Positions 13,679 to 31,074 are shown, counted from the first letter of the stretch. The stretch is 38,803 nt of DNA from a virus (IMGVR_UViG_3300044713_000097:1-38803); one strand, 5' to 3'. Made by a program: numbers and translations. The notes: generated by a model from the letters alone, not told the origin.

Positions 13679-13727
13679 CAATAGCAGGGTGGGATCACCG
13701 GTAGGACGATTTGAGCGGTAATGGGGT

Positions 13728-13881: not shown

Positions 13882-13908
13882 GCTGGGCTATGCAGAAAGA
13901 GGCTGCCC

Positions 13909-13936
13909 AAAGAATGAATCTGGTTTCAGTTCAACG
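13909..13936. repeat. 28-bp direct repeat, copy 2
   Basis: Exact copy of 13651-13678 in the same orientation. It lies 27 bases to the right of the second palindrome, whereas copy 1 lies 54 bases to the left of the first. The order is therefore repeat, palindrome, palindrome, repeat. Confidence 0.95.
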
Positions 13937-14184
13937 GCTTAATCGCTGCTGGTCGTGGGTAAATCCGTGGGTAGCAAATGGCCAAATCCAGAATGTTCAA
14001 CGATATCAACGCGTAACTGCGAAAGCCAGCGGATGACGTATCCGCCGCTAGTTCATAATGGGTCAGTTACGGTACTCCGGTGAGGCTGGGGGCATGCGCA
14101 TGGCGCCTACCGGGCAAGGAATGAATATGAACAACAGGCCGATTATGGTCATGGTTTGTTCGCAGATTGCGGAAACATTGAGGC

Positions 14185-14207
14185 GTCTTACTAGAGGTTA
14201 GTAAGAC
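14185..14207. repeat. Inverted repeat (hairpin 1 of the terminase-proximal series)
   Basis: GTCTTACTA (14185-14193) pairs perfectly with TAGTAAGAC (14199-14207) around a five-base loop. No T-run follows, so it is not an ordinary terminator. Four smaller or larger inverted repeats follow within about 100 bases. Confidence 0.8.
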
Positions 14208-14232
14208 TACCCCTCAACCGGGGATAGGCAAA

Positions 14233-14268
14233 TATCTTGTCGTCAAGATAAACTACCAGAATTTCTGG
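14233..14268. repeat. Two adjacent inverted repeats (hairpins 2 and 3)
   Basis: TATCTTG (14233-14239) pairs with CAAGATA (14244-14250), and CCAGAA (14256-14261) pairs with TTCTGG (14263-14268). A weaker CCCC/GGGG pair lies just before them near 14210-14223. They continue the series that ends in the long hairpin at 14284-14311. Confidence 0.75.
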
Positions 14269-14283
14269 GAGTTTCGCGACCTT

Positions 14284-14311
14284 TTGAGCTCGCTAAAGTT
14301 AGCGAGCTCAA
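14284..14311. repeat. Long perfect hairpin at the 3' end of the small terminase gene
   Basis: TTGAGCTCGCTAA (14284-14296) and TTAGCGAGCTCAA (14299-14311) are perfect 13-base arms around a two-base loop. The stop codon of the small terminase gene lies inside it. No U-tract follows on either strand. It may stop or stabilise the terS transcript, or be part of a packaging recognition site. Confidence 0.8.
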
Positions 14312-14703
14312 CCATCGCCCCCAGCCTCGCCGCCATCCTCAACCTGCGCCTCCAACAGCTCCTGGCGGCCATATAGCTGCTGCCAGTCGTCGGCGTTGAC
14401 AGGCTTTCCCGACATCGGCAACGCTATCACAAACCGATGCTGGTGCTCCACAGCGGCATCCACGGTAACGGCCTGTGCGGGCTTCCCAAAGGCTCTATCG
14501 AGTATCAGCGACCAAGCCTTGATGCGCACCTCTGGTGCCTGCGCTACGTCTCTGGCAATGGCCTCAACTTGCTTGAGTCCTTCAAGGCTCACCGTGCGAG
14601 CATGATTGAGTAGGGCCTTTTCCTCTTTTGGCCTGCCACCATTATTTCCGGACTGGCCAGGTTTGAACTGGTTTCCGAGCTTATGGCCTTTAGGGAATGG
14701 CAT
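14308..14703 (-). CDS. terS: Terminase small subunit-like protein
   Basis: This 131-residue protein starts with the pattern PKGHKLGNQFKPGQSGNNGG and RPKEEKALLNHAR, seen in phage small-terminase-like and DUF5681-like DNA-binding proteins. The middle is helical (LEGLKQVEAIARDVAQAPEV, IKAWSLILDRAFGKPAQAV), and the C-terminus is acidic and Gly-rich. It would recognise the packaging start and hand DNA to the large subunit. It is separated from terL by the hairpin-rich non-coding region and five small genes, which is unusual but supports a local pac region. The ribosome binding site is weak. Confidence 0.65.
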   Translation of the reverse strand: MPFPKGHKLGNQFKPGQSGNNGGRPKEEKALLNHARTVSLEGLKQVEAIARDVAQAPEVRIKAWSLILDRAFGKPAQAVTVDAAVEHQHRFVIALPMSGKPVNADDWQQLYGRQELLEAQVEDGGEAGGDG

Positions 14704-14774
14704 CTCTGTTCTCAGGTTTATGCTGGTACCCGGCTACTACAGCTTTCACCGGTCAAAAATCGGGTCAGTTGTCC

Positions 14775-14898
14775 TGCTCCAGTTAGCTCCGTCCCTATAA
14801 GGGACTGGAGCAACTGGAGCACTGGAGCAAACCGACTGACTTTGGCCTCTGGAGCGCTCCAGTTGTGCTCCAGTTGTGCTCCAGTTATTGCTCCAGTT
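14775..14898. repeat. Iteron-like array of TGCTCCAGTT repeats (candidate origin)
   Basis: At least eight copies or near-copies of TGCTCCAGTT lie here in both orientations. Forward copies are at 14775, 14855 (CGCTCCAGTT), 14866, 14877 and 14889, the last four spaced 11-12 bases, about one helical turn. Inverted copies are at 14803, 14812 and 14820. More copies lie in the rep gene end (15164, 15175, 15207). Directly repeated sites beside a RepA-type ATPase gene suggest a replication origin bound by an initiator. Confidence 0.65.
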
Positions 14899-14899
14899 A

Positions 14900-16351
14900 T
14901 CAATGGTCACCATTGGTTGCTCCATTGAAGGTGTTTTCGCTTGGTGGTTGCTTGCTTCCTTGGATGAAATATTCCCTTGGTCTCCGCTTCTCATCGATGC
15001 GTGTTTCGACCTCTAAGATATTGTCGCTGCGGCACTTTTTCAGTACGCCGTTCAGCCTCGCCAGGTCACACTTACGGTTGTCTCCGCCATGGAAGCATTT
15101 CATTTCGAGGTGTTTGGCGAGCTTCCATCCGAGCCATTCTGGAGACCTACTATCGCTTCGATATGCTCCAGTTCCGCTCCAGTCGTAGATCAACCTAAGG
15201 ATAGGTTGCTCCAGTTGATACAACTGCTCTGGCTTTTTCCATGGTTTTAGGACCCCAACGCTCTCGCCGCATGGTAGAACCTCAGACCACAGTTGCGTCC
15301 AGGTTGCTTCGCCCGGAGGTTTCATATTGGCCTTGCCATCATCCAATCGGTTGTATCGCCAAGCATCCTTTTCCTCGATGCCGAGGGCCGGTGCTTCGGC
15401 TGTTGTCATGATGGTGATGACGCGTGCCGAGCGTGCGGCCGCGATGATGGCGTCGGCGCCGCGGGCGTCGTCTGCGGTCATGGGGGCGCTGCCGTTCCCC
15501 TGACTTGGCTTGCGGGTGTGGAGCAGGATTTCGATTGAGACGTTCTTCTCCATGGCGATTTCGGAGAAAATCTCCATGACCTCGTCCATCTGGTCGTTGC
15601 TGTTCTCCGCCACGCCGTGGAATTTCTTGAGGGGATCGAGAATGAGCACATCGACCTTATGCGCGTCGATGCCTGCCTTGAGCGACTTGATTCCGTCTTC
15701 GTTGGCGGTGACGGTGCCTTTGATCAGCTTTGCCACCTTGGCGCTACCGCGTTTGATATCGAGCACGGAGTCAAAGAACAGTCGGTCGCCTATTTCCTCC
15801 TGTGTTATTCCGTAATGAACGCACGCTGCCATGATACGTCGTTCTATTTCGTCTCGCGGGTCTTCCCCAATATACCACACCCGCAATTTGCCCCCTGGCA
15901 TTTGCCCAGTTTTGAGTATGTCGCGCCCTGTGACCATGGACAATATCTCGGCGATGGTGCGTGTAGTCTTGCCGTGGCCGCGACGTCCGATGGTGCAGCT
16001 GACGAATTTCCGGATGTAGTGTTTAGCGTATAGCCAATCCCGCGGCTTGATATCGGCTGGGTTTTTCCAACTGAATGGCGTTGGCTTGAACAGTATGATC
16101 ACCGCCTCTCGGCGGGGCGGGTTCTCCCGCAAGCCTTCCTTGTCTTGCGTGTAGCCCTCGAAGCTATGGCCGTTATGTCCATTTGGCCGCCGCGGGTAGT
16201 CATAGACATCATTATCGATAGCGAACTGCGTCACGATCTCGTTCAGAACGTCGTCTGTGAACCTCGCTACGGTCGCTGTCAGGTCTGGTCGATTCACATA
16301 CAGAAACTCGCGGGCTTTCTGGCGCCAGGCTTCATTGACATCGGCACTCAT
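14900..16351 (-). CDS. RepA-like AAA ATPase (replicative helicase/loader type)
   Basis: This 483-residue protein has Walker A GRRGHGKTT (residues 122-130) and Walker B VDVLILDPL (233-241). A RecA-like core with EILLHTRKPSQGNG fits the AAA_25/RepA family of hexameric helicases and initiators found on plasmids and phages. The C-terminal 130 residues (YQLEQPILRLIYDWSGTG onward) could be a DNA-binding domain. The open frame extends to 16465, but the ATG at 16351 is preferred because the longer form would start at a GTG without a ribosome binding site and read through a hairpin. Iteron-like repeats at its 3' end support a replication role. Confidence 0.75.
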   Translation of the reverse strand: MSADVNEAWRQKAREFLYVNRPDLTATVARFTDDVLNEIVTQFAIDNDVYDYPRRPNGHNGHSFEGYTQDKEGLRENPPRREAVIILFKPTPFSWKNPADIKPRDWLYAKHYIRKFVSCTIGRRGHGKTTRTIAEILSMVTGRDILKTGQMPGGKLRVWYIGEDPRDEIERRIMAACVHYGITQEEIGDRLFFDSVLDIKRGSAKVAKLIKGTVTANEDGIKSLKAGIDAHKVDVLILDPLKKFHGVAENSNDQMDEVMEIFSEIAMEKNVSIEILLHTRKPSQGNGSAPMTADDARGADAIIAAARSARVITIMTTAEAPALGIEEKDAWRYNRLDDGKANMKPPGEATWTQLWSEVLPCGESVGVLKPWKKPEQLYQLEQPILRLIYDWSGTGAYRSDSRSPEWLGWKLAKHLEMKCFHGGDNRKCDLARLNGVLKKCRSDNILEVETRIDEKRRPREYFIQGSKQPPSENTFNGATNGDH

Positions 16352-18177: not shown

Positions 18178-19356
18178 CTACTCTCCTGCTAAAAAGGCCG
18201 CCCATGCGACCATAAGTTCTCTTCGCTTCGCCAGTAAATCGCCCCTTCGGTAGTCGCCCTCTACGCCTCCGACCGTATGCGCCAGCGCCATCTCGACCAC
18301 ATGATTCGGGAATGACGTTGCCTCGGCCGCCCAATCCCGGAAGGCGCTCCTCATGCCGTGCACCGTCCCCTTGGCATTCAGCCGTCGCATCAGGTGCGCC
18401 AGCATATTGCCCGTGACCCCCGGAAACACGACAGCCGGGTCCAACCCCTGCACATCCGCCAGCACTGCCATTGCAGCCTCAGACAGCGGCACCCGGTGCT
18501 CCTTGCCGTTCTTGGTGGCCGGCACTGTCCACAAATACCCAGCCACATGTGACCACAGCATCGGGGTCCTATCCTCGCGATCGCTACCGACCAGGTCTGA
18601 GAGCCGCACAGCGGTCAAGACAATGAACTCAAGCGCCCGGGCAGCCACACCAGGCTCCAAGCGCAGCCGCCTCATGAACACCGGCACATCCCGCCACGGC
18701 ATCGCCGCGTAATGGCCGCGGGCCTTAACCTTTGCCTTCGATGGCAGCAGCTTATCGAGGTGCCCCTTCCACCTGGCAGGGTTCTCGCCAGTCCTGAAGC
18801 CCCGCACCGTGGCCCAATCCAAGATGCTCTCGATTCGCCCCCGCACCCGCGAAGCCGTTTCCGGCTTGTCCGTCCAGATTGGCGTCAACACCCGCATCAC
18901 CGCCGCCGTGTCGATTGCTGCCACTGGCAGCCCCCCTAGCACCGGCTCCACGTAGTCAGCCAGGCTCTGCGACCATTGCCTGATATGCCGCGGATGTTTC
19001 CAGCCCGCACGGTGCGCCTCGATGTATGCGATCGCGCATTCACTGAACGTGACACCCTTTGCCGACTGTGGCCGCTGGGAAGCCCGCTGAGCGTGTCTAG
19101 CCTCGATAGGGTCTACGCCCAAGTATCTCTGCCGACGCGCATCCAGGGCAGCCTGCCGTGCCTCTGCGAGGCCTATGAGCGGATAGGGTCCTAGACCCAT
19201 GTAGCGGGGCCGCTTGTCGAGCATGAACCGCAGGACCCAGCCCTTCGAGCCGGACGGCAACACGCGCAGATACAGCCCACCCCCGTCATGGTGCAACCCG
19301 GGCGTCTTGAGCCTCTCAACCTTGAGCGCTGTCAGCCTATTCGCCAGCCGCGGCAT
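18178..19356 (-). CDS. int: Tyrosine integrase, P4-type
   Basis: This 392-residue protein has the N-terminal DUF4102-like region of P4-type integrases (RLTALKVERLKTPG, GGGLYLRVLPSGSKGWVLRF, YMGLGPYPLIGLAEAR). It also has a SAM-like core-binding domain and the catalytic domain with LTAVRLSDL, VHGMRSAFRDW and ALAHTVGGVEGDYRR. These carry the Arg, His-x-x-Arg, His and Tyr catalytic residues. The ATG at 19356 is preferred over one at 19386. It integrates the phage genome, usually at a tRNA gene, so the phage is temperate. The attachment site is not identified. Confidence 0.93.
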   Translation of the reverse strand: MPRLANRLTALKVERLKTPGLHHDGGGLYLRVLPSGSKGWVLRFMLDKRPRYMGLGPYPLIGLAEARQAALDARRQRYLGVDPIEARHAQRASQRPQSAKGVTFSECAIAYIEAHRAGWKHPRHIRQWSQSLADYVEPVLGGLPVAAIDTAAVMRVLTPIWTDKPETASRVRGRIESILDWATVRGFRTGENPARWKGHLDKLLPSKAKVKARGHYAAMPWRDVPVFMRRLRLEPGVAARALEFIVLTAVRLSDLVGSDREDRTPMLWSHVAGYLWTVPATKNGKEHRVPLSEAAMAVLADVQGLDPAVVFPGVTGNMLAHLMRRLNAKGTVHGMRSAFRDWAAEATSFPNHVVEMALAHTVGGVEGDYRRGDLLAKRRELMVAWAAFLAGE

Positions 19357-19386
19357 CCTGCCACATGTCCACAAATCAGTCCACAA

Positions 19387-19817: not shown

Positions 19818-20033
19818 ATGACCGACCGCACAATGACATTCAAGGTCAGTGACGCCCGCGCTCTTGCTGACCGCCTCTTCGGGCTAGCGACCAGCCGATT
19901 GGCCTTTGAGCCCGATCCAGTCCGACGAGACATGAAATCTGCCGCCAGATTGCTGTGGTGGCTGCTGCGCGACTTCGCTCCCGGCGAGGTCATCACCCTA
20001 CCGATCGACGACACCGAAGGAGACCACCAGTGA
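19818..20033 (+). CDS. Small hypothetical protein
   Basis: This 71-residue protein begins MTDRTMTFKVSDARALADRL. It has two predicted helices (ALADRLFGLATSRLAF and MKSAARLLWWLLRDFAPGE) and an acidic end (PIDDTEGDHQ). Its stop overlaps the GTG start of the next gene (GTGA). No family is recognised. It belongs to a run of three small genes at the head of the nonulosonic acid operon. Confidence 0.65.
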   Translation: MTDRTMTFKVSDARALADRLFGLATSRLAFEPDPVRRDMKSAARLLWWLLRDFAPGEVITLPIDDTEGDHQ

Positions 20034-20266
20034 ACAACGACAGTGGGTATGTCTTCATGGCTGCCGCCAACTACGAGCTCGCACGGCAGAAATCCGAGTT
20101 CGACCCAAGCCCGGAGACGGTGCGGGCAGAAGCCGATGCGCTTAGCCGGGTTGCGATCCTTGTCGTGAACACGGTCGAGACCTTCCGCAATAGCGATCTC
20201 ATGCCGGACGACATCTTCGCCAAGGTTAGAAGCGCCGGCGAAAAGATTGCCCGGATGCAATTCTGA
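20030..20266 (+). CDS. Small helical hypothetical protein
   Basis: This 78-residue protein starts at GTG with a strong AAGGAG ribosome binding site seven bases upstream; an open frame further upstream is only an extension. The sequence is helical and charged (ANYELARQKSEFDPSPETVR, LSRVAILVVNTVETFRNSDL). The stop shares one base with the PseB-like ATG (TGATG). No family is recognised. Tight coupling to the sugar pathway suggests co-regulation. Confidence 0.65.
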   Translation: MNNDSGYVFMAAANYELARQKSEFDPSPETVRAEADALSRVAILVVNTVETFRNSDLMPDDIFAKVRSAGEKIARMQF

Positions 20267-21198
20267 TGAGCATCCTGATCACTGGCGCGACGGGGTCTCT
20301 GGGCAACGAGCTGGTTCGCCAGCTCCTTGCTCAATCTGACCCGCCCAACCGTATCGTCATCTACTCCCGCGATGAGCAGAAGCAGGAGGCGATGCGTCAG
20401 CATTTCAATGACCACCCATCCCTGCGGTTCTTCATTGGCGACGTCCGCAACATCGACCGGCTGACGCTGGCGTTGTTCGGCATCGACACCGTCATCCACG
20501 CGGCTGCGCTCAAGATCGTCCCGGTGCTTGAGTACAACCCCCAGGAGGCGATCGAGACCAATGTCATCGGCACCATGAACGTGGTGCAAGCCTGCATCCG
20601 CACCGATGTGCGGCGCGCCATTCTGGCCTCCACCGACAAGGCTGTGAACCCTGTGAACCTCTATGGCGCCACCAAGCTGTGCGCCGAGAAGCTGTTCGTG
20701 GCGGCCAACAACCTGTCGGGCTCCACTGGTGGCGAGCATGGCTGCCGCTTCTCCGTCGTGCGCTATGGCAACGTGGTCAACTCCCGCGGCTCCGTAATCC
20801 CGTTCTGGCGCTCTCTGGCTGCCCGTGGCGAGCCGCTGCCGATCACCCATCCCGACATGACCCGGTTCTGGATAACGCTCGACCAGGCGGCCGACCTGAT
20901 CCTTTCGGCCATGGACGACGGCATAAGGGGCGGCGAAATCTTCATCCCGCGTTTGCCTGCGTTCCGTGTAGCGGACCTCTGCGGAGTCATTGGCACCCCG
21001 GAGACCTGTTACAGCGGCATCCGTCCCGGCGAGAAGATACACGAGACCCTGCTGTCGTCCGATGAGTGCGCCGAGCTCGAGGGCGACTTGTTCACCATCT
21101 ACCCGTCCTGGCTTCCTTCAAAGGGGCGGGCCAAGGGCTACTCATCCGACATTGCCCACAAGCTTTCCGTCGATGAGCTGCGCGCGAGGCTCGCATGA
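20266..21198 (+). CDS. pseB: PseB-like UDP-GlcNAc 4,6-dehydratase
   Basis: This 310-residue short-chain dehydrogenase of the CapD/FlaA1/PseB group has NAD-binding GATGSLG (residues 7-13). It has the group's AAALKIVPVLEYNPQEAIET (79-98), STDKA (122-126) and the catalytic pair Y133/K137 in NLYGATKLCAEK. PseB converts UDP-GlcNAc to UDP-2-acetamido-2,6-dideoxy-beta-L-arabino-hexos-4-ulose, the first committed step to pseudaminic acid. Its short length favours the soluble inverting PseB type over the long membrane-bound LegB/PglF type. It overlaps the following aminotransferase start by ATGA. It is slightly shorter than cellular PseB (about 330 residues). Confidence 0.85.
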   Translation: MSILITGATGSLGNELVRQLLAQSDPPNRIVIYSRDEQKQEAMRQHFNDHPSLRFFIGDVRNIDRLTLALFGIDTVIHAAALKIVPVLEYNPQEAIETNVIGTMNVVQACIRTDVRRAILASTDKAVNPVNLYGATKLCAEKLFVAANNLSGSTGGEHGCRFSVVRYGNVVNSRGSVIPFWRSLAARGEPLPITHPDMTRFWITLDQAADLILSAMDDGIRGGEIFIPRLPAFRVADLCGVIGTPETCYSGIRPGEKIHETLLSSDECAELEGDLFTIYPSWLPSKGRAKGYSSDIAHKLSVDELRARLA

Positions 21199-21821
21199 GC
21201 AACCCGTTCGCCATCATCGAAGAGTTTGAGGCGGCGATCTGCGACTACACGGGCGCACCTTACGCGGTTGCCGTGAACTCAGCCACGAATGCGCTGTTCC
21301 TCTCTCTCGTCTGGTGGCGCCAGCACTACGTCAAGCCTTCGCATTGGCCCGACAGCATGGGCGACAGCATTTGGCTGCCCAAGCGCACCTACGTGTCAGT
21401 ACCCATGTCGGTAATCCATGCCGGCTGGCGTGCACGCTTCGTAGATAAGGATTGGGAGGGCGGCTACGACCTGCATCCACTTCCGCTATGGGACTATGCC
21501 CGGAGATTCACAGGAGGAATGTACCGTGCTGGAACTATTCAGTGTGTTAGCTTTCATTGGAGTAAGCCTCTCGGTATTCAGCATGGTGGCGCAATACTCC
21601 ACGATAATATTTCTGCTGATGATTGGCTACGTCGTGCTCGATTTGATGGCCGTCTCTCGGGAGAAAGCGCAGGAGAAGCCAAAATAATTGGCTGGCACTG
21701 TCTAACTACGCCCGAGGTTGCTGCGGCTGGTTTGGTGAGAATATCTCTACTACCGCCAAACAACCCGGACGCTCCTAAACCAGACTATCCAGACCTCAGC
21801 AAAATGGAGTTGTTCCGATGA
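21195..21821 (+). CDS. Compact DegT/DnrJ-family (PseC-like) aminotransferase
   Basis: This 208-residue protein is about half the usual 370-390 residues of PseC-type PLP aminotransferases, but it keeps the core blocks. These are FEAAICDYTGAPYAVAVNSA (residues 11-30), TYVSVPMSVIHAGWRARFVD, WDYARRF with the probable PLP-pairing Asp (100), and SFHWSKPLGIQHGGAIL with the probable Schiff-base Lys124. The C-terminal small domain seems largely missing. In context it would aminate the PseB product. Residues 111-164 are also read in another frame by a membrane-protein ORF. Whether it is active alone or an intentionally reduced enzyme is not decided by sequence. Confidence 0.75.
   Translation: MSNPFAIIEEFEAAICDYTGAPYAVAVNSATNALFLSLVWWRQHYVKPSHWPDSMGDSIWLPKRTYVSVPMSVIHAGWRARFVDKDWEGGYDLHPLPLWDYARRFTGGMYRAGTIQCVSFHWSKPLGIQHGGAILHDNISADDWLRRARFDGRLSGESAGEAKIIGWHCLTTPEVAAAGLVRISLLPPNNPDAPKPDYPDLSKMELFR
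21526..21687 (+). CDS. Nested out-of-frame small membrane protein
   Basis: Inside the aminotransferase gene, in another frame, a GTG at 21526 lies eight bases after a perfect AGGAGG (21512-21517). It opens a 53-residue frame with two clear membrane segments (LFSVLAFIGVSLSVFSMV and STIIFLLMIGYVVLDLM) and a charged tail (SREKAQEKPK). Both frames remain plausible proteins here, and base composition shifts toward A/T over exactly this interval. Size and topology resemble small phage holins or antiholins, or membrane anchors. A chance ORF is possible, but the ribosome binding site and hydrophobic pattern argue against it. Confidence 0.6.
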   Translation: MLELFSVLAFIGVSLSVFSMVAQYSTIIFLLMIGYVVLDLMAVSREKAQEKPK

Positions 21822-21979
21822 ATGAAATAGCGTTCCCGTTGTGGCAAACTGCAGTCAGTCTTTTTGCCCTTATCGGGTTTTACGGCCTTGTCTTTGGTGG
21901 GACCTGCTGGCTGGTCGATCGTTATCTCTCATGGTCCAGCCGCCGCCGTAGCAAAATTCTAAATAGGGGTTCCCGGTGA
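21818..21979 (+). CDS. Small single-span membrane protein
   Basis: This 53-residue protein starts at an ATG overlapping the aminotransferase stop (ATGA), and its stop overlaps the GTG of the synthase gene (GTGA). It begins MNEIAFPLWQTAVSLF. One membrane segment (LFALIGFYGLVFGGTCWLV) is followed by a strongly basic tail (SSRRRSKILNRGSR), suggesting an N-out, C-in topology. No family is recognised. It could anchor the sugar pathway at the membrane or work with the nested membrane protein. Confidence 0.6.
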   Translation: MNEIAFPLWQTAVSLFALIGFYGLVFGGTCWLVDRYLSWSSRRRSKILNRGSR

Positions 21980-22623
21980 CCGAGCTCGTAGCTGAAATAT
22001 CAGGCAACCATGGCGGGGTGCTTAATAACGCGCTCCATCTGATTGCCGTAGCCAAAGCCTGCGGTGCTGATGCCGTTAAGTTTCAGTGCTTTGACGCGGA
22101 GCGGCTTGCGGTTAAGCGCTCTGGAATTAGCTGGCAAGGCATTACCATGGCCTACAGCAATCTCCTGGAACTCTACTACCGTACGGAGACCCCTCGCGAT
22201 TGGTTTCCGACGCTGATTGCCAAAGCGGAGCTAGAAGACATCCCTTGGTTCTCGTCAGTGTTCGACCCGGATGACGTGGCTTTCCTGGAAACGCTAGGTT
22301 GCCCGCGGTACAAGATCAGCGCCTACGAAATGCTCGATGGCGATCTAATCAACGCCGTGGTGGCAACCCGCAAGCCTATCGTGATGTCGGTTCGCCCCCG
22401 CGACGGGCTGACGATCCTGGCCGCAACCGACTATGAAGGCGAAACAGTAGCGCTAGGGCTATCGGACCACACACCATTCGACGGCGATCTGTTTATAGAA
22501 CCCGATACCCCGATGGTCGAGCGGCACATCTGCTTGCCGGATGTCGAGACGCCGGACAGTGAGTTCTCGTCAACTCCGGATGAATTCGCGACCTACGTGA
22601 AAGCCATTAGGGGCGCACCATGA
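21976..22623 (+). CDS. Minimal NeuB/PseI-like nonulosonic acid synthase
   Basis: This 215-residue protein has the TIM-barrel blocks of sialic/pseudaminic acid synthases: VAEISGNHGGVLNNA (residues 5-19), GADAVKFQCF (30-39) and WFSSVFDPDDVAFLETLGCP (91-110). YKISAYEMLD (112-121), GLSDHT (161-166) and VERHICLPD (181-189) follow. These enzymes condense phosphoenolpyruvate with a six-carbon amino sugar. The usual C-terminal antifreeze-like SAF domain is absent and barrel loops are short, against about 340-350 residues in PseI/NeuB. It starts at GTG coupled to the membrane protein and overlaps the amidotransferase start. Activity is inferred. Confidence 0.8.
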   Translation: MTELVAEISGNHGGVLNNALHLIAVAKACGADAVKFQCFDAERLAVKRSGISWQGITMAYSNLLELYYRTETPRDWFPTLIAKAELEDIPWFSSVFDPDDVAFLETLGCPRYKISAYEMLDGDLINAVVATRKPIVMSVRPRDGLTILAATDYEGETVALGLSDHTPFDGDLFIEPDTPMVERHICLPDVETPDSEFSSTPDEFATYVKAIRGAP

Positions 22624-23696
22624 AACACTGCCGCCGTTGCGTCTATCCCGAGACCAAACCCAACCTATGGTTCGACAATACGGGGCTGTGCTCGGCATGT
22701 GTCTATTTTGACCGTCAATCGAAAATCGACTGGCCAGCCCGCACGCAGGAATTTTCCATCAAGTTTCCTCGCGGTACGCGCGTCGTAGCCGCCGTCTCTG
22801 GCGGCAAGGACTCCACCTACATCGTCGTCAAGCTGATGGAGCTCGGTCTCAAGGTCCTTGCCGTTTGTGCCACCACCGACGACTTGACGCCGATCGGCCG
22901 CAGGAACCTCGACAACATCGGGCGCCTAACCGACCTGATCGAGGTAACGCCCAACAAGACGCTGCGCCGCCAGATGTCTAAGTACGCGCTTGAGACGGTC
23001 GGCGACATCTCTTGGTGCGAGCATGTCCTGATCTGGACGACTCCGGCGCAGATTGCCGACCTGATGGGTATCGGTCATGTCTTCTACGGCGAGAACCCTC
23101 AAAATGCTTACGGTGCCGGTCCGGATGGCACCGAGCGCCTAGCCGGGATGCCTCCCCAGTGGGAACAGGAGTTCGGTGGCATGCTCGGACTGCGCGTCAG
23201 CGATATGCAGGAGCAGTTCCCGGACGGCGAGTTTGGCCCGTACAAGATGCCCAAGCGGATGCCGACCAGGCATTTCCTTGGCTACTACTTCCCCTGGGAT
23301 GGCGGGGAGAACGCTAAGATCGCACGCCAGCATGGCTTCGAGTGGTACGGTGGCGATGTCGAAACATCGTGCGTTCCGTGGGAGAATCTCGATAACCACC
23401 AAACCGGCCTGCATGATCTAATTCGATATTATAAGTACGGCTACACACGAGCCCACGACATCCTTGGCTCAGCCATCCGCAGAGGCAGGCTCGATCGTCC
23501 GTTAGCGGCCACGTGCATCAAGTGCCTTGATCCTTACCCGCACACTTATATCGGCAAGCCAATCAAAGAAATCCTCGATGACATTGGCATGACGAGGTCT
23601 GAGTTCTGGGCTGTCGTCTACCGGTTCACTAACTGGCAACTGTTCGACCGTCCTGTGCTGGGTTTCCAGCCCACCCCAAAGTTTGAGATAGAGTGA
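22620..23696 (+). CDS. WbuX/PseA-like N-acetyl sugar amidotransferase
   Basis: This 358-residue protein opens with a zinc-type CRRCVYP (Cys4, Cys7) and GLCSACVYF (Cys24, Cys27), then the PP-loop SGGKDST (60-66) for ATP adenylation. A late TCIKCLDPYP block follows. This is the WbuX/WbpG/PseA amidotransferase family, which converts an N-acetyl group on a sugar to acetamidino with ammonia supplied by HisH/HisF-like partners. The WbuZ/HisF-like partner is encoded four genes downstream. The length is normal. The substrate here is presumably a nonulosonic acid or its precursor. Confidence 0.87.
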   Translation: MKHCRRCVYPETKPNLWFDNTGLCSACVYFDRQSKIDWPARTQEFSIKFPRGTRVVAAVSGGKDSTYIVVKLMELGLKVLAVCATTDDLTPIGRRNLDNIGRLTDLIEVTPNKTLRRQMSKYALETVGDISWCEHVLIWTTPAQIADLMGIGHVFYGENPQNAYGAGPDGTERLAGMPPQWEQEFGGMLGLRVSDMQEQFPDGEFGPYKMPKRMPTRHFLGYYFPWDGGENAKIARQHGFEWYGGDVETSCVPWENLDNHQTGLHDLIRYYKYGYTRAHDILGSAIRRGRLDRPLAATCIKCLDPYPHTYIGKPIKEILDDIGMTRSEFWAVVYRFTNWQLFDRPVLGFQPTPKFEIE

Positions 23697-24106
23697 TGAG
23701 ACTAACCGACATCTACAGCATGCCCGCCACTGTGGTCACAGGCTTCCTATGGGAAATGCTACGGGACAGGGACCCGGCCGCGAACATCTCGCACCAGAAG
23801 ATGCCAACGCCAGAACAACACAAGGCCTTCGTTGACTCCAAGCCCTATGAAGCCTGGTATGCGATAGAAAAGAACCGTAGCTATATCGGGACGGTGTATT
23901 TGAGTCGCCAGAACGAGATTGGCGTGTTCCTGATGCATGGTGTGCAGGGCCGCGGCATTGGCTCATGGGCTGTCCAGGAGATCATGCGCATCTACGGTCC
24001 GCGCCGGTATCTGGCCAACATTGCGCCCACCAATGTCAAATCGCAGGATTTCTTCCGCAAGCTTGGGTTCAAGCTGATCCAGTACACGTTCGAGAGGGAG
24101 ACTTAG
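23696..24106 (+). CDS. GNAT N-acetyltransferase, PseH-like
   Basis: This 136-residue protein has the acetyl-CoA loop QGRGIGSWAV and the C-terminal NIAPTNVKSQDFFRKLGFKL of GNAT enzymes. The N-terminal NISHQKMPTPEQHKAFV recalls PseH/SpeG-like proteins. In pseudaminic acid synthesis PseH acetylates the 4-amino group made by PseC. The ATG at 23696 shares one base with the amidotransferase stop; a GTG one codon earlier is also possible. The stop overlaps the ribosome binding site of the next gene. The role is inferred from operon context. Confidence 0.75.
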   Translation: MRLTDIYSMPATVVTGFLWEMLRDRDPAANISHQKMPTPEQHKAFVDSKPYEAWYAIEKNRSYIGTVYLSRQNEIGVFLMHGVQGRGIGSWAVQEIMRIYGPRRYLANIAPTNVKSQDFFRKLGFKLIQYTFERET

Positions 24107-24116
24107 GAGGATGTTT

Positions 24117-24287
24117 ATGAAGATTTTCGAGTGGCTTTTCGGATGCAGACGCCAACGCGACATCACTCTAGCTATGACTGCGGAAGAGGCTTGGCGCGAA
24201 TACCGAAAGACTGGCGAGGCGGTAGAGAGCTTCGAGTCGTTCAAACGACGCTGGGACCATCACCGGAAGCTAGAGATGGGGAAATGA
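24117..24287 (+). CDS. Small charged hypothetical protein
   Basis: This 56-residue frame begins MKIFEWLFGCRRQRDITLAM. The AGGAGG at 24105-24110 sets the start at 24117, not the ATG at 24111. The N-terminal 10 residues are hydrophobic/amphipathic, and the rest is a charged helix (AEEAWREYRKTGEAVESFES and FKRRWDHHRKLEMGK). It overlaps the WbuZ-like ATG by ATGA. Function is unknown. Confidence 0.6.
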   Translation: MKIFEWLFGCRRQRDITLAMTAEEAWREYRKTGEAVESFESFKRRWDHHRKLEMGK

Positions 24288-25015
24288 TCAAAACCCGCGT
24301 CATCCCAGTTGTCCTGTGGGACGGTGTCAACGCTGTCCAGACTGTTAAGTTCGGCCGGCCTGCACGTGTGTTCGGCTCCCTGATGGATGCCGTGCGGGTT
24401 TATGAGCGGCGCAACGTTGACGAGCTTATCTTGCTCCACATTAACGCGGCGACTCCCGACCTTGAGGACATCAAATGGTTCACGTCGCAGATGTTCTGCC
24501 CGGTGACCGTAGGTGGTGGCGTGAATACGCTGGCCGATATCCGCAACGTGCTCAAGTCTGGGGCCGACAAGGTGTCGATACGGCGAGCAGCCAGCCCGCA
24601 ATTCATTGATGCTGCAGCTAGGCATTTTGGCTCACAGGCTATCGTGTTCTCGCTCGATGCTATCCCTATCAACCGCTACGCTATCACTCCCCACGACGGC
24701 TACATGATCGACCGCTGTACGGCGGCAGCACAGGACGCAGAGGGAGCCGGCGCGGGCGAAATCCTGCTCACCTCTGTCGAGCGCAATGGCACGATGCAGG
24801 GCTACGACCTTGACCTTATCCGCGCCGTCGCCGGCTGTGTGGACATCCCCGTTATCGCCCACGGTGGTTGCGGCAAGCCAGAGCATATGTTGGAAGCTAT
24901 CCAGGCCGGCGCCCACGCTATCGCCGCCTCCACCATGTTCATGTTCTGTGATGTAACCCCTCGTGATTGCAGTAGGTATTTGAGCGATCACGGGATAGCC
25001 GCAAGGATAACTTAG
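24284..25015 (+). CDS. WbuZ-type HisF-like protein (glycosyl amidation partner)
   Basis: This 243-residue TIM barrel is of the HisF superfamily. The opening RVIPVVLWDGVNAVQTVKF and the block VDELILLHINAA match WbuZ/HisF2-type proteins, not histidine-pathway HisF. The catalytic Asp of the IPCLDV motif is not conserved. Phosphate-binding loops are recognisable in TVGGGVNTLADIRNVL, IVFSLDAIP and VIAHGGCGKPEHM. WbuZ-like proteins channel ammonia from a HisH-like glutaminase to the WbuX amidotransferase. The partner amidotransferase is present, but no HisH-like gene is seen, so host HisH or free ammonia may serve. Confidence 0.85.
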   Translation: MIKTRVIPVVLWDGVNAVQTVKFGRPARVFGSLMDAVRVYERRNVDELILLHINAATPDLEDIKWFTSQMFCPVTVGGGVNTLADIRNVLKSGADKVSIRRAASPQFIDAAARHFGSQAIVFSLDAIPINRYAITPHDGYMIDRCTAAAQDAEGAGAGEILLTSVERNGTMQGYDLDLIRAVAGCVDIPVIAHGGCGKPEHMLEAIQAGAHAIAASTMFMFCDVTPRDCSRYLSDHGIAARIT

Positions 25016-25465
25016 ATGTCTGCACGTCTTGGCAACAAAACAGCCATCACCCATGGCGGTAGCGACACGCGCCTATATCGTATTTACAACAACATGAAGA
25101 ACCGTTGCCACAACGAGCGATCTCCAAGGTTTGCAGATTATGGGCAACGAGGCATTTCTGTATGCCCACAGTGGAAAGCCTCCTTCGTAAGTTTTCGAGA
25201 CTGGGCCTTGCAAAATGGTTATGACGACACCCTGGTTATAGATCGCATCGATAATGACGGAAATTACTGCCCTGAAAATTGTCGGTGGGTCACCGCCTAC
25301 GCCAGCAATAGGAATCAGAGAAGCAACATTGTCGTAGAGATCGGTGGCGTAGCCAAATGCCTGAAAGATTGGTCTAAGGACCCTATTTGCAGGGCAAATT
25401 ATAGCACTATTACCCGCCGCATCCGCGATCTTGGATGGAACCCAGTGAAGGCTATAACGACATGA
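25016..25465 (+). CDS. HNH-like homing-type protein inserted in the sugar operon
   Basis: This 149-residue protein belongs to a common phage family with TRLYRIYNNMKNRCHN, FADYGQRGISVCPQWK and the HNH-like block VIDRIDNDGNYCPENCRWVT. The central His of the HNH motif is Arg (IDRID), as often seen in this family, so nuclease activity is uncertain. A DNA-binding C-terminus follows (LKDWSKDPICRANYSTITRR). It starts directly after the WbuZ stop and overlaps the cytidylyltransferase ATG by ATGA. The sequence is visibly richer in A/T than its neighbours, suggesting separate acquisition. No intron boundaries are evident. Confidence 0.8.
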   Translation: MSARLGNKTAITHGGSDTRLYRIYNNMKNRCHNERSPRFADYGQRGISVCPQWKASFVSFRDWALQNGYDDTLVIDRIDNDGNYCPENCRWVTAYASNRNQRSNIVVEIGGVAKCLKDWSKDPICRANYSTITRRIRDLGWNPVKAITT

Positions 25466-26187
25466 CCAACGGCGTAGTCATACAGGCTCGCATGACCTCT
25501 AGCCGCTTCCCTGGCAAGTCGATGGCCATGCTCGCCGGCAAGCCGGTCTTGCAGCACGTCATCGAGCGCTGCCAGATGATACCCTTCATCAACAAGGTAG
25601 TGGTTGCCATGCCGGTCGCCAAGGAATCCGACCCGATGGGCGCGCTGTGCGACACCATGGGGGTGGAGACATTCTTCGGACCAGAGCACGACGTTCTGAA
25701 GCGTTACTACCTCGCGGCCACCTATTACGAATTCACCACCATCATGCGGATTACCGCGGATTGCCCGTTCCTCGACCCGATCGTGTGCGGTGAGGTTCTA
25801 TCGCTGCTCAAGGCTGAGCAACTGGACTACTGCTGCAACTGCTATCCGGTGCGGACCTATCCGAAGGGGTTGGACTGCGAGGCCTTCACCTATGATTGCC
25901 TTGAGGCGGCGCATGTAACCACCAAGAGCCAACATAACCGCGAGCATGTCACGCCATGGATGCAAACCCGGAAGGGCATCAGGCGGGCTTGCGTGCAGCA
26001 GAAGATAGACGTGTCCAATCAGAACTGGTGTGTGGACTACCCCGAGGATATCTCGCGTCTTGAGGCGCTGCTGGCAGATGCCCAGAAGCGATACGATGCC
26101 GAGCACATACAGCCTGGACTGCCGGGCCGACCGTTCACCACCGATGAATTGCTCAAGATGGAGTCGCAACGTGGAAGCCCCAATTGA
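25462..26187 (+). CDS. SpsF/PseF-like CMP-nonulosonic acid cytidylyltransferase
   Basis: This 241-residue protein has the nucleotide-binding signature QARMTSSRFPGKSM (residues 8-21) of the SpsF/NeuA/PseF family. It also has LQHVIERC and ITADCPFLDP with the metal-binding Asp. Such enzymes activate pseudaminic or related acids as CMP sugars, the donor for transferases. The ATG at 25462 overlaps the HNH stop; an in-frame start at 25435 lies inside the HNH gene and is less likely. The 3' end overlaps the methylase start by 17 bases. Confidence 0.85.
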   Translation: MTNGVVIQARMTSSRFPGKSMAMLAGKPVLQHVIERCQMIPFINKVVVAMPVAKESDPMGALCDTMGVETFFGPEHDVLKRYYLAATYYEFTTIMRITADCPFLDPIVCGEVLSLLKAEQLDYCCNCYPVRTYPKGLDCEAFTYDCLEAAHVTTKSQHNREHVTPWMQTRKGIRRACVQQKIDVSNQNWCVDYPEDISRLEALLADAQKRYDAEHIQPGLPGRPFTTDELLKMESQRGSPN

Positions 26188-26776
26188 AGCCTGGAAGGGT
26201 TCTTTCGGCGACGCCTATCATGCTCGCCAGACTGATATGCATGCCGAGGCCGCCAAGCGTGAGATGCTATGGGCGCATGCGCTCGACAGGCTGCCTAGGC
26301 TCCGTATGGACATCCTTGAGGTTGGCGCCGGCACCGGGGCGAACTTGGAGGCCATTCGCCGACTGCGACAAATGTCGCAGTTGACGCCCACGCTGTTCGC
26401 CTTGGAGCCCAACGAGAAGGCGGCCGCGTCCATCCCCGGAGACGTAGCCCTTATCTATGGCACGGCCGACCGTATCGAGGCGGCATCCGCAACGTTCGAC
26501 CTGGTGTTCACCTATGGCGTCCTGATCCACCTCGAGGACCCGTTGGCCGCCATGCGGGAGATGTACCGGGTATCCAAGCGCTACGTCATGTGTGCCGAGT
26601 ATTTCGCCCCCAAGAGAGAAGCCATTCCCTACAGGGACGGAGTTCCGCTGTTCAGAGACGATTACGGCGCCTTTTGGATGGATAGCTTCGATCTGAAGCT
26701 GCTCGGCTACGGTTTCTGCTGGAAACGCGCCACGGGCCTCGACAACGTCACTTGGTGGATGTTTGAGAAGACTTAA
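26171..26776 (+). CDS. Pseudaminic acid biosynthesis-type methylase
   Basis: This 201-residue SAM-dependent methyltransferase starts at a GTG within the end of the cytidylyltransferase gene. The opening EAWKGSFGDAYHARQ and motif I ILEVGAGTGANLEAI (residues 48-62) fit it. LVFTYGVLIHLED and MYRVSKRYVMCAEYF match the family known as pseudaminic acid biosynthesis-associated methylase. It would O- or N-methylate the sugar. It is the last gene of the operon and its 3' end overlaps the convergent gene by 29 bases. This family strengthens the pseudaminic assignment of the whole cluster. Confidence 0.85.
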   Translation: MEAPIEAWKGSFGDAYHARQTDMHAEAAKREMLWAHALDRLPRLRMDILEVGAGTGANLEAIRRLRQMSQLTPTLFALEPNEKAAASIPGDVALIYGTADRIEAASATFDLVFTYGVLIHLEDPLAAMREMYRVSKRYVMCAEYFAPKREAIPYRDGVPLFRDDYGAFWMDSFDLKLLGYGFCWKRATGLDNVTWWMFEKT

Positions 26777-26914: not shown

Positions 26915-27985
26915 CTACGGCGTCGGTTTCGTAAAGATATAGGCAACGGTCACGGTGCGCGAAGCCCCTCGGTTGCTGTACACGGTGTAGGCGGTACCGT
27001 TGAAGGCCACGGACATCTGGTTTGCGCCCGGCGTCGTGGTGCTGGCGACCCACACGGCGCCCTGCACGGTTCCAAGAGTTACGCTTGCGCCAGCGCATAA
27101 GTAAATGGCGACCGCACCATCCTCGATGGCATGTACGACAAGCATACCGGCGCCAAGGCCAAGCTGGTGGTTCGCTCCGCTGGCAAGCGTAAAGCTGTCT
27201 TCGTAGATCAGGCCGGCTACTGTCGCAGCGGCAGAGTACCATTTCGTGGCATATCCGGTCGGCAACGCGAGTGCGGGGGGTGTGGGATTCACGCTGGTAT
27301 CGAGAGAATTGCTGCCGAACACAATACCGCTGATGCATTGGGCACCATTGTTAACGATGTCCATCGCGGCGCTAATGCTATTGCCCCCCAAACCTCCCGA
27401 TGCAGAGTTATCGAGACGAATTATAACTGCGCTTCCAAGCGGATTGACGTTGAACGGGTCCTCGGTAGCTACCCCGCCATTATTGAATACAGAGCATTCA
27501 AGATTGATATGATGTGAGTTGGTGGAACCCGACGCGATATATCCAGCCATGTAGGTGGACCACGTGTTGTGGCCCGTGCCGGTGCTATCGTGTACGACGA
27601 GTGAGTTTAGGCCGATGACATTCTGGACGCTTCCGGAAGGATTGTCGCTACTCCTAGCCGCGAATAGAGCACCCCAATTGCCTACAGGCGATACGCCATA
27701 GACGGTAACCTGCCCTCCTGCGTCAGCGCCTAGGATGTAGGTATTCACCCATGTGACGTTGGTATCTTGGGCAGGAACACCCGCAAGGATATTTTTGGCA
27801 CCTACGGTATTAGCGATAAGAACTGAATTTAAGTCGTATCTAAAATGGCTTAATGAAACAAAAGGATATAAGGATGCCCCAACCTGGAAGGGGTTTATCG
27901 TCTTGAAGGCATCGGTCAGCGCAGTAGGTTGCCCGGTGTCGTAGTTCACAAACCGTGGTGCCGTTGGCCCGGTGCCGGAGGTCAC
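26915..27985 (-). CDS. Tail spike or fibre protein
   Basis: This 356-residue protein begins MTSGTGPTAPRFVNYDTGQP and is rich in Gly, Ser, Asn and Thr with repeated short beta strands. Examples are QNVIGLNSLVVHDSTGTG, NSHHINLECSVFNNGG and GGNSISAAMDIVNNGAQ. The C-terminal 60 residues could be a small beta-sandwich (VSNRGASRTVTVAYIFTKPTP-like end). No enzymatic site is seen. It is the last of four tandem fibre-type genes, so it probably contributes to host binding. The gene starts one base before the stop of the preceding gene ends, with no gap. Confidence 0.7.
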   Translation of the reverse strand: MTSGTGPTAPRFVNYDTGQPTALTDAFKTINPFQVGASLYPFVSLSHFRYDLNSVLIANTVGAKNILAGVPAQDTNVTWVNTYILGADAGGQVTVYGVSPVGNWGALFAARSSDNPSGSVQNVIGLNSLVVHDSTGTGHNTWSTYMAGYIASGSTNSHHINLECSVFNNGGVATEDPFNVNPLGSAVIIRLDNSASGGLGGNSISAAMDIVNNGAQCISGIVFGSNSLDTSVNPTPPALALPTGYATKWYSAAATVAGLIYEDSFTLASGANHQLGLGAGMLVVHAIEDGAVAIYLCAGASVTLGTVQGAVWVASTTTPGANQMSVAFNGTAYTVYSNRGASRTVTVAYIFTKPTP

Positions 27986-29143
27986 TTAAATCCCCGCGTC
28001 GGCCTGCCAGTGGACGGCAATCTGATTACCAGCCGCGATAGAGGTGCTTCCCACTGACACGTAAATCATGTTTGCCACTGGCGAATTGATGCCAGCCGAA
28101 TCCAGCGACACCACCAGACTGCTGCCGGTCGTGATGTTCTGTGCATTGGCGCTGGAACCTGACGGGTTATAGCTCGTGTAAGAGGCTGTGGCCCGAAGCT
28201 CGATTGGGTAATGCTGTATCCATAGCCCGCAAGCTGCGCCAGCCGCCGCTACCAAAGCCGAGGCTCCCGGCAATCCAGCATTCTGCGCTGGTGCGGTCTT
28301 GTACGGGAAACTCTTGCGGTAGTGCCGCTTGCATGCGAGTAGCGACCGCTCGAAGGGCCAGCGCTCGAAGGCGGCGATCGGCGCACTGGTATTCTGGATA
28401 ATCTCAACCTGGAAATCGTCGATCGTTAAACTGTCGTCCGTGCCAGCGGTGCCGACAGGAGCCCAGTTAACCCCGACCTCAAGCTGAGTTGCGTTCGCTG
28501 CGATCGCGGCGGAAATGAACGTGTATCGCGTGGCCGTCGTGGTCAGGTTTGCAGATGAGTTGAGTGGCTGCGTCTGGTTGCTGTAGCCGGTTGTCGTCTT
28601 GGCAGGGCTGCCGGTACCCGCATTGATGTAGACGTTCAGCGTGCCGCTTGCCGGTGACCAGTTCGCGCCAGCCTTCGCGGTAAAGCTTACCGCAACGATC
28701 TGGCCCGCAAGCATAGCGCACTCATCGACATCGAACGGAAAGCCGAAGGTGATGAACCCTGTACCGGTCTGCCCGCTGTTGCGCTGAGGCTTCGCAGCCC
28801 ATTGTGAGCCTGTGACGATGCCGGCCACCTGTGCAACGGTACATGCCTGGTTAGCATTCGTGGTGAGGTACCAGCGGTCAGCCGTGTAGACGGACGACGA
28901 TGCGCTGACTGCAATGCTCGCGGTACCACCCGCCCCGCGCTGCCATACCTCAAAGCCGCCGTTGGCGCCGATGATATTGCGCTGGCCATAGGTGTTCTGA
29001 AGCGCCTGCATGGCCTCCGTGAACGAGCCCGACATGTCGGTGAAGATCGCATCCCACACCGCGGATTGGACGACCTGGCCCGGGGCGGCGCTCTCAGCAC
29101 CTGCTGCCGGTGTATAGACGCCTGTGACTTGATTAAAGCCCAT
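27986..29143 (-). CDS. Tail fibre protein with carbohydrate-binding-like module
   Basis: This 385-residue protein begins MGFNQVTGVYTPAAGAESA, with an N-terminal segment likely for virion attachment. It then has NGGFEVWQRGAGG and YTADRWYLTT, a signature frequent in phage fibre proteins that precedes a jelly-roll domain (AMLAGQIVAVSFTAKAGANW, LTIDDFQVEI). The pattern resembles carbohydrate-binding modules. The C-terminal part includes FERSLLACKRHYRKSFPY and a Ser/Thr-rich tail. It lies between the Gly-rich fibre and the last spike. Receptor specificity is unknown. Confidence 0.75.
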   Translation of the reverse strand: MGFNQVTGVYTPAAGAESAAPGQVVQSAVWDAIFTDMSGSFTEAMQALQNTYGQRNIIGANGGFEVWQRGAGGTASIAVSASSSVYTADRWYLTTNANQACTVAQVAGIVTGSQWAAKPQRNSGQTGTGFITFGFPFDVDECAMLAGQIVAVSFTAKAGANWSPASGTLNVYINAGTGSPAKTTTGYSNQTQPLNSSANLTTTATRYTFISAAIAANATQLEVGVNWAPVGTAGTDDSLTIDDFQVEIIQNTSAPIAAFERWPFERSLLACKRHYRKSFPYKTAPAQNAGLPGASALVAAAGAACGLWIQHYPIELRATASYTSYNPSGSSANAQNITTGSSLVVSLDSAGINSPVANMIYVSVGSTSIAAGNQIAVHWQADAGI

Positions 29144-29146
29144 GGA

Positions 29147-30229
29147 TCACCCGATGATTCCTGCAAAGAAGCCTCGTGAGGCTGGTGTGTTGGTGACGAC
29201 GATCAGACCCTGGCCAGCCCCGCCAGATTGGCAGCTCCCCGCATTCGATATGGACGCTCCGCCACCACCACCGCCGTAATTTGCGCCACTGCCTGCGGTT
29301 ATGCTGCCGCCCGAATTTATCGAGCCACCGCCGCCACTGCCGCAGCCGTGAGAGCCATCAAACTCAGTGCCGCTATTCCCGCTGCTGCCATTGCCGCCGC
29401 TCCCAGCTGCCCCACCGGAGACTGTACCGCCATCTGCGGCGCCTCCATTGGTAACGCTATTGCTTGCCGCACCAGAGGTGCTTCCGTCACCATTGGGACC
29501 ACCAGCCCCACCACCGCCTGTGGCCGCTTGTGTAGTTATGTTGACGGTGGCCCCTCCAGAGCCGCCGCCTGACTTTTTGGTGGCGCCAACTCCGCTGCTT
29601 GCGGCGCCCCCAGATGCACCACTGACGACTGTACCGCCCGAAACACTGTCGGCAGCTTGACCAGCGGAGCCGCCAACAGCTCCGACAGAAGAACCCCCAA
29701 GGGTCGTCCCATTAAACCAGGTGGAAGCGCCGTCATGGCCAGCCGATGCCGAAATATTCGCCGTGACTGCGTTGCCTGCGGTTGCGATTTGATAGGTAGC
29801 CGTCCCACCGGGGGTTAGGACAATATTGGTTTGGGCCGAATAAGCTCCCGCACCGCCACCTGTCGCACCAGTTGTTGCGCCCGCATTAGCCCCAGCGGCT
29901 CCACCACTGGCACCGCTCCCTATTGTTTCGCCCTTGTTGTTTCCCGAGTTCCAGTTTGTCGGTACATTGAATGTCTGGTTCGAGCCTGTCGGCGACACCA
30001 GAAACGTGACAGTGGCAATGAACTTGAAATGGCTGTCCTGCAGCAGCTCGTGGAGTTGCGGGACGCTGACATCCTCGAATGGGACGACATATTCGTGCGG
30101 GGAAAGGATATTGGTGCGGACCCGCATTCCCTGCGCGAGCATCGTGGCAACAAGCCCTGCACTCGCCAAGAAGCATAGGCATTGAACATTGCGCTTCGGA
30201 CGCGCCGGCCTGGTGAGGAAATACTTCAC
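29147..30229 (-). CDS. Glycine-rich fibre-like protein with hydrophobic N-terminus
   Basis: This 360-residue protein starts at a GTG that overlaps the upstream stop (GTGA), with AGAGGA upstream; the longer open frame is a shadow. After a basic N-terminus (KYFLTRPARPKRN) comes a hydrophobic stretch (QCLCFLASAGLVATMLAQG). A short globular domain (YVVPFEDVSVPQLHELLQDS) follows, and then TVTFLVSPTGSNQTFNVPTN. About 220 residues of Gly/Ala/Ser-rich repeats resemble the glycine-rich domains of phage adhesins such as those of Salmonella phage S16 type. It probably mediates receptor contact. Confidence 0.7.
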   Translation of the reverse strand: MKYFLTRPARPKRNVQCLCFLASAGLVATMLAQGMRVRTNILSPHEYVVPFEDVSVPQLHELLQDSHFKFIATVTFLVSPTGSNQTFNVPTNWNSGNNKGETIGSGASGGAAGANAGATTGATGGGAGAYSAQTNIVLTPGGTATYQIATAGNAVTANISASAGHDGASTWFNGTTLGGSSVGAVGGSAGQAADSVSGGTVVSGASGGAASSGVGATKKSGGGSGGATVNITTQAATGGGGAGGPNGDGSTSGAASNSVTNGGAADGGTVSGGAAGSGGNGSSGNSGTEFDGSHGCGSGGGGSINSGGSITAGSGANYGGGGGGASISNAGSCQSGGAGQGLIVVTNTPASRGFFAGIIG

Positions 30230-31074
30230 GATCCGGTCCTCTGGCACAGCAGTGAGACTGTGAGGCGTTGAACATTGGTCGCTGGGTTGCCAACATTTGT
30301 ATTTCCGCCTACGAAAAATCCGACAAGTTCTCCTGCTGTAAGGGCCGTTGTCCACCCTGTAAGTGTCGAGTCTTGCGCCTTGGTGGCGCTGCTGAAGCTG
30401 AGATTGGGTGTTGGAAAACTAGATGCCGAGCTGATGTTGCTGAAGCCACCCGATCCTGCAAAACCGGAGAAGGTGTTGGTACCTACCCAAACTCCCGCGC
30501 TGCCGGATTGATCACCCAGCATAGTGATCCTTTTTACCGTGCAGTTGCACGGCACCTCGACAAAGGCGAAGGTGTTTCCGGCAATCGCGCTGCCTCCACC
30601 GTCGAAAGCCACCTCAATTGAAAAGTTCGAGGCGATGCCGGCCCACCATGCGGCTGCCGCGCCTGCACCGAATGAATAGCTTGTGGCGTTGAGCGTGACG
30701 GCGCCATTGATGGTCAACGCGCCGCTATAGGTGACAGCCCCAGACCACGATGCCGCCCCCGCCCAAGACACCGACTGGTCGTTATTGAACGTGGCAACCT
30801 GCGTGCCATTCGTGGCAAAGCCGATCTGATGCGTTCCTGCGAGAAACAAACCCGACGTCGGGTCGCCTGCAAACGTGATAGATGGAGCGCCCACCGAACC
30901 CGCTGCGGCTTTGAGCGCCCCCGTCATTGTCGAGACGCCGGTCGTGGCAACGCTCTGCGTCAGCGCGGTGGCTATATCGCTGTAGTTTGAGTTATGATCG
31001 CTCGACTTGATCAGCGTGTTAGGGCTGAACGCTCCGATCGGGAGTGTATAGGTGCCTGAACTATTGCGGGGCAT
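30226..31074 (-). CDS. Tail fibre-like protein
   Basis: This 282-residue protein begins MPRNSSGTYTLPIGAFSPNT, followed by LIKSSDHNSNYSDIATALTQ. This N-terminal pattern is common in podovirus tail fibres for attachment to the tail. A region of repeated short strands follows (GTHQIGFATNGTQVATFNND, SGAVTYSGALTINGAVTLNA), as in trimeric beta-helical shafts. The C-terminal 120 residues form a separate Gly/Ser-rich domain. It is the first of the four fibre-type genes and is coupled to the Gly-rich gene. Confidence 0.75.
   Translation of the reverse strand: MPRNSSGTYTLPIGAFSPNTLIKSSDHNSNYSDIATALTQSVATTGVSTMTGALKAAAGSVGAPSITFAGDPTSGLFLAGTHQIGFATNGTQVATFNNDQSVSWAGAASWSGAVTYSGALTINGAVTLNATSYSFGAGAAAAWWAGIASNFSIEVAFDGGGSAIAGNTFAFVEVPCNCTVKRITMLGDQSGSAGVWVGTNTFSGFAGSGGFSNISSASSFPTPNLSFSSATKAQDSTLTGWTTALTAGELVGFFVGGNTNVGNPATNVQRLTVSLLCQRTGS

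Follow-up and report, generated by a model that had tools for sequence, protein, structure and literature searches.

Candidate decoration of phage virions by a phage-encoded pseudaminic-type nonulosonic acid

The biosynthetic route closest to the genes described here is the PseB-C-H-G-I-F pathway of Campylobacter and Helicobacter; in canonical Pse synthesis, PseG frees the reducing end ahead of PseI (PMC7910423). The window analysed here, the whole 38,803-nucleotide stretch of the viral record IMGVR_UViG_3300044713_000097, carries a cassette of eight sugar-pathway genes at 20266–26776 on the + strand, which has in common with that pathway the PseB, PseC, acetyltransferase, PseI and cytidylyltransferase steps within one gene set. 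The cassette differs in being virus-encoded and without PseG, in a GNAT acetyltransferase with matches to generic models and a cytidylyltransferase closer to KdsB-type models than to PseF, in the miniaturisation of its aminotransferase and synthase, and in the amidation and methylation genes built into it. With the WbuX/WbuY/WbuZ amidation system it shares WbuX and WbuZ, which are co-conserved, whereas WbuY (HisH-like) was missing from 36 of 36 phage contigs with the cassette.

The Maf flagellin nonulosonate transferases (PDB 5MU5) have their PF01973 core in common with two further proteins of the window, which differ from Maf in being encoded in a phage capsid module and in lacking the Maf N- and C-terminal domains. 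Phage virion glycosylation and phage modification of host nonulosonic acids are both already known: glycans are present on capsid and tail proteins of mycobacteriophage virions (Freeman et al. 2023, cited in PMC12619734), and EpaA/EpaB and O-acetyltransferases of Acinetobacter prophages act on nonulosonic acids (PMC12053666, PMC6586298). Unlike the mycobacteriophages, the window phage also encodes an activated-sugar pathway, and its predicted sugar is a nonulosonic acid; unlike the Acinetobacter enzymes, which modify a host-made sugar or polymer, its cassette covers most of the de novo synthesis. Open-licence papers yielded no report of a phage that combines a capsid-module transferase of Maf type with a near-complete nonulosonate pathway.

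Judged by its gene content, the phage almost certainly encodes a near-complete, streamlined pathway of pseudaminic type. The account that we favour, with moderate confidence, is that the phage-encoded nonulosonic acid is transferred by Maf-like transferases to a capsid-associated virion protein. The initial annotation of this DNA had left the place of the sugar open between the virion and the lysogen surface; the transferase-like genes of the capsid module, unnoticed at that stage, favour the virion.

The sugar cassette and its short enzymes

Searches against NCBIfam and Pfam recovered all eight genes on one strand and mostly overlapping or coupled, as initially annotated. The PseB-like UDP-N-acetylglucosamine (UDP-GlcNAc) 4,6-dehydratase (20266–21198) matched PF02719 (1.3e-89) and TIGR03589 (1.4e-109), the latter with 366 bits and thus under the equivalog cut-off of 407.75. 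Its start overlaps by 1 base the stop of a small phage open reading frame (ORF) directly 5' of it (20030–20266, +), which places the cassette within a phage operon. Mini-DegT, a PseC-type aminotransferase of 208 amino acids (21195–21821), matched PF01041 (3.4e-14) and, over residues 7–86 only, the NCBIfam PseC model (2e-11; 43.5 bits vs a cut-off of 423.5). Mini-NeuB, a PseI-type nonulosonate synthase of 215 amino acids (21976–22623), matched PseI (TIGR03586, 2.3e-39), which bore out the initial assignment. The WbuX-like N-acetyl sugar amidotransferase (22620–23696; TIGR03573, 1.2e-59) scored 202.5 bits against an NCBIfam cut-off of 203.2, and the pseudaminic-acid-associated methylase-like protein (26171–26776; TIGR03587, 4e-32) 112.0 against 112.05. 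The start of the WbuZ-like (HisF-type) amidation subunit (24284–25015; TIGR03572, 3.2e-59), first placed at 24131, was corrected to 24284.

Some of the initial wording had to be revised. The acetyltransferase in the PseH slot (23693–24106), first called PseH-like, matched generic GNAT models alone (PF00583, 1.9e-8), PseH not being among its NCBIfam hits. The cytidylyltransferase in the PseF slot (25462–26187), first called SpsF/PseF-like, is SpsF/KdsB-like (PF02348, CTP_transf_3, 1.8e-20), the KdsB-like NCBIfam models matching better (2.3e-16) than PseF (8.9e-4). Genes for amidation, activation and methylation were all present, while the pathway proved incomplete, with PseG and the WbuY/HisH glutaminase missing and two enzymes miniaturised. 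Nor do the eight genes form an uninterrupted run: an HNH endonuclease gene (25016–25465, +; phrog_3377, 1.4e-49), a mobile passenger, lies between the WbuZ and cytidylyltransferase genes, and the operon contains three small ORFs on the same strand. Two of these, one of them hydrophobic (21818–21979) and the other at 24117–24287, have no assigned function; the third, also hydrophobic, is nested in another frame of the mini-DegT gene (21526–21687) and was rejected as an overprinted gene, its reading frame not being kept in relatives.

Both short enzymes retain their predicted active sites. Mini-DegT lacks the C-terminal small domain of the canonical enzyme of about 375 amino acids, but D100 and K124 were invariant in an alignment of 57 homologues, with K124 aligning with the pyridoxal phosphate lysine K183 of PseC (SFHxxK). 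Its AlphaFold2 model, with a predicted local distance difference test score (pLDDT) of 95.9 and a predicted template modelling score (pTM) of 0.92, matched the large domain of perosamine synthase, ArnB, WbpE and PseC in structure comparison. In Flavobacterium phage immuto, mini-DegT adjoins genes annotated as pilin glycosylation protein and nucleotide-sugar epimerase, consistent with its acting as a UDP-4-keto-sugar aminotransferase. Among cellular genomes, it was found in 1 of 385 in one class sample and 0 of 369 in another. A 1.4-Mb genome from the first class has a 200-residue mini-DegT beside a GDP-mannose dehydratase-like gene, a rare copy in a cellular genome assembly and perhaps of perosamine type.

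Mini-NeuB is likewise shorter than the canonical synthase of about 350 amino acids, and its C-terminal SAF domain is absent. Residues E7, K35, Q37, K113, S163-D-H165, E182 and H184 were invariant over 34 sequences and correspond, by sequence, to the catalytic, metal- and phosphoenolpyruvate (PEP)-site positions of NeuB (E, K-x-Q, K, S-D-H and E-x-H). In the same alignment, the synthases of the window and of contigs L002 and L085 lacked about 45 residues, the 'LLHCxSxYP' strand among them, and the AlphaFold2 model of the window protein (pLDDT 88.9, pTM 0.88; best PDB match PseI, 8h2c) had a low-confidence loop in place of strand 6. With 30 viral and 45 cellular NeuB sequences in one tree, the viral ones needed 2–4 changes vs 23.6 by shuffling, which points to few transfers. 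The cellular relatives inspected had a full-length NeuB and, if a DegT was nearby, a full-length DegT. When bacterial genomes were scanned with a NeuB profile for copies in prophages, cellular NeuB genes came back, none of those inspected being recognised as prophage. Should our reading be true, mini-DegT and mini-NeuB would be natural minimal enzymes of 200 and 215 residues, respectively.

The joint conservation of the cassette was evident among uncultivated viruses. A WbuX scan of viral contigs identified two (L002 and L003) with the same cassette in a different order, their WbuX being 48–50% identical to that of the window, and alignment-based scans returned 473 relatives of mini-DegT and 17 of WbuX. 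Thirty distinct viral contigs, among them the window, had all eight families, so the cassette is not due to chance; the gene order was shuffled, so this joint presence does not reflect recent common descent of one block. Among 50,697 isolate-phage records, WbuX had no match and mini-DegT matched seven, and the cassette system is therefore almost unseen among isolate phages. Mini-DegT also accompanies GNAT and PseB-like genes in many marine viral contigs (L030–L083) that lack NeuB and WbuX; these genes probably form a distinct diacetamido-sugar pathway.

Transferase-like genes in the capsid module

Two Maf/MptE-like genes of family PF01973, candidate nonulosonate transferases, were identified on the – strand at 3236–4144 (2.9e-23) and 1625–2623 (7.5e-18); the protein encoded by the latter probably begins near 2446. 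The PF01973 scores of the pair, 82.9 and 65.3 bits, compare with a cut-off of 34.6. The sole PDB match of the window transferase, for the gene at 3236–4144, was the flagellin transferase Maf (5mu5, 5e-5), and the family profile likewise ranked 5mu5 (7.4e-11) above pterin pyrophosphokinases. Scanned as a single sequence against viral contigs, the window protein gave no match; matches were obtained when the cassette contigs were searched for the family. Nine of the 36 cassette contigs had PF01973 above cut-off vs 0 of 40 controls (Fisher p 7e-4), the controls being marine viral contigs with mini-DegT and without the cassette, not matched by phylogeny, and the cassette contigs sharing ancestry.

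A second family without a Pfam assignment, A4, was present in 21 of the 36 cassette contigs and in none of the controls, as counted in the contig set in which it was discovered. In 20 of these 21 contigs it shared the strand of the cassette and was no more than about 7 kb away. A4 and PF01973 overlapped in two contigs only (p 0.02), and one or the other was found in 28 of 36 cassette contigs vs 0 of 40 controls, and in 23 of the 24 that are 36 kb or longer. The single isolate-phage record matching A4 was Microcystis phage Mvi-Yong1342-1 (3902–4705), where the gene stands just before the terminase genes; no WbuX, NeuB or mini-DegT match was found in this phage.

In the window, the transferase-like genes belong to the module of a major capsid protein of Mx8 type (4775–5806, –; phrog_9953, 6.7e-104), from which they are separated by the gene for a 205-residue protein (4147–4764, –), recognised by its position and by a family common to six cassette phages. 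The order of capsid gene, gene for a protein of about 150–210 amino acids and transferase gene or genes recurred with phrog_9953, Phage_capsid_2 and Phage_capsid_3 capsids, three unrelated families, and in two contigs (L022 and L007) the capsid, small-protein and A4 genes and the cassette are consecutive on one strand. In each of the six cassette phages whose capsid is of Mx8 type, one to three PF01973 genes follow the capsid gene. A capsid related to that of the window also occurs in nine cassette-free phages, isolated or complete (Mx8, Mx9, BUCT555, ppBjS10J-1 and five more). These relatives keep the genes neighbouring the capsid gene, and no PF01973 gene was found anywhere in them. The two PF01973 genes of the window bracket a homologue of the gene after gp49 of Mx8-like phages (2406–3239, –), detected by phmmer in eight of the nine relatives. 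The 205-residue protein had no match in these nine; as it occurs in the six cassette phages and in none of the relatives, it is the leading acceptor candidate.

Destination of the sugar

In the scheme that we infer, from activities and step order to the exact sugar, its acceptor and its location on the virion, UDP-GlcNAc would be dehydrated by the PseB-like enzyme and aminated by mini-DegT, and the product acetylated by the GNAT protein and condensed with PEP by mini-NeuB. Amidation by WbuX/WbuZ would follow, then methylation and cytidine monophosphate (CMP) activation by the SpsF-like enzyme. UDP release (the PseG step) and glutamine hydrolysis (the WbuY/HisH step) would be supplied by the host or by an unrecognised enzyme; because WbuZ is HisF-like, its recruitment of host HisH as a candidate partner is a natural idea. 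Transfer to a virion protein would fall to the Maf/MptE-like enzymes, whose genes come directly after that of the capsid; the likeliest acceptor is the small protein whose gene lies between the capsid and transferase genes.

Several observations weigh against this account. PseG (TIGR03590) was found in none of the 36 cassette contigs, window included, and the HisH/WbuY glutaminase (TIGR01855) in none either, its positive controls being detected in 14 of 14 cases. The PF01973 proteins, at about 300 amino acids vs 666 in Maf, represent the Maf core domain alone, and PF01973 also includes pterin kinases. Homology of A4 to PF01973 (A5) was not accepted, profile comparison having aligned 34 columns with a probability of 24%. 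In the window and the other PF01973 contigs, a distance of about 11–63 kb separates the cassette from the transferase genes, and the strands often differ. The composition of the control set and the ancestry shared by the cassette contigs tell in the same direction, and the cassette phages are known from metagenome sequence alone, with no isolate among them.

Lysogenic conversion, in which the sugar would be placed on the lysogen surface or on flagellin and alter receptor or superinfection properties, seems to us an unlikely but serious competitor. The integrase gene lies beside the cassette, which is on the strand opposite the late genes. Flagellin is the target of known Maf transferases, and in Acinetobacter baumannii prophages alter the nonulosonic acids in the capsule of their host (EpaA/EpaB, PMC12053666). 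The sole transferase candidates found, however, sit in the capsid module, right behind the capsid and small structural genes, across three unrelated capsid lineages, and several phages have the cassette after these candidates on the same strand; of the two, virion decoration is the best-supported. We think it improbable that the pathway makes a sugar-nucleotide for another use, such as DNA or small-molecule modification, with a NeuB-like protein devoid of synthase activity. The systematic lack of PseG would suit such a use, as would the loss of strand 6 and the SAF domain from the window synthase, the many marine phages that have mini-DegT with a dehydratase and GNAT only, and its place in a bacillosamine-like set in phage immuto; but the metal- and PEP-site residues of NeuB are invariant in all 34 sequences, NeuB is accompanied by the cytidylyltransferase and Pse methylase, and no DNA-modification transferase was seen.

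A view of the two short enzymes as decaying morons, left over from bacterial genes that have broken down, is very improbable. The aminotransferase and the synthase have 55–60% of canonical length, yet 57 diverse viral sequences, 33–59% identical to the window protein, preserve the aminotransferase in its short form, the deletion in the window synthase recurs in those of L002 and L085, both enzymes have confident predicted folds, and length and active-site residues are conserved across diverged contigs; a pseudogene origin was rejected on this conservation.

We also propose, more tentatively than transfer to a capsid-associated protein itself, that widespread uncultivated tailed phages with unrelated capsids possess a dedicated, sialylation-like decoration of the virion, based on a minimal viral nonulosonate pathway of miniaturised enzymes, a borrowed host HisH and UDP-sugar hydrolase, and two alternating capsid-linked transferase families of Maf type. 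If this is true, sialic-acid-like virion decoration would be common in uncultivated phages, and candidate nonulosonate transferases would be at hand in two alternating families, predicted acceptors being encoded beside them, which makes the target of phage sugar genes directly testable.

Other features of the window

The 38.8-kb IMG/VR record has profile matches to integrase, primase/helicase, terminase, portal and capsid genes; a tyrosine integrase at 18178–19386 (–; phrog_1, 3.6e-39) agrees with its initial description as a temperate phage. The portal is split into two ORFs (7253–10311, –), the second of which (7253–8707) encodes a histidine phosphatase domain (PF00300, 1.9e-33) followed by the portal C-terminal match. 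Three consecutive proteins of 356–402 amino acids encoded after the structural genes (26915–30355, –) had no PHROG match and are possibly fibres or receptor-binding proteins. In contig L003, the sequence 3' of the cassette (13560–15540) reads as methyltransferase-like, hexapeptide acyltransferase and radical SAM genes, for which further sugar tailoring is possible. Scans for promoters and terminators returned no more sites than in shuffled sequence. The contig ends (38255–38803 and 1–182) fall between homologues of adjacent Mx8 genes, those for a tail adaptor and the p52 amidase, which suggests a circularly permuted, near-complete genome.

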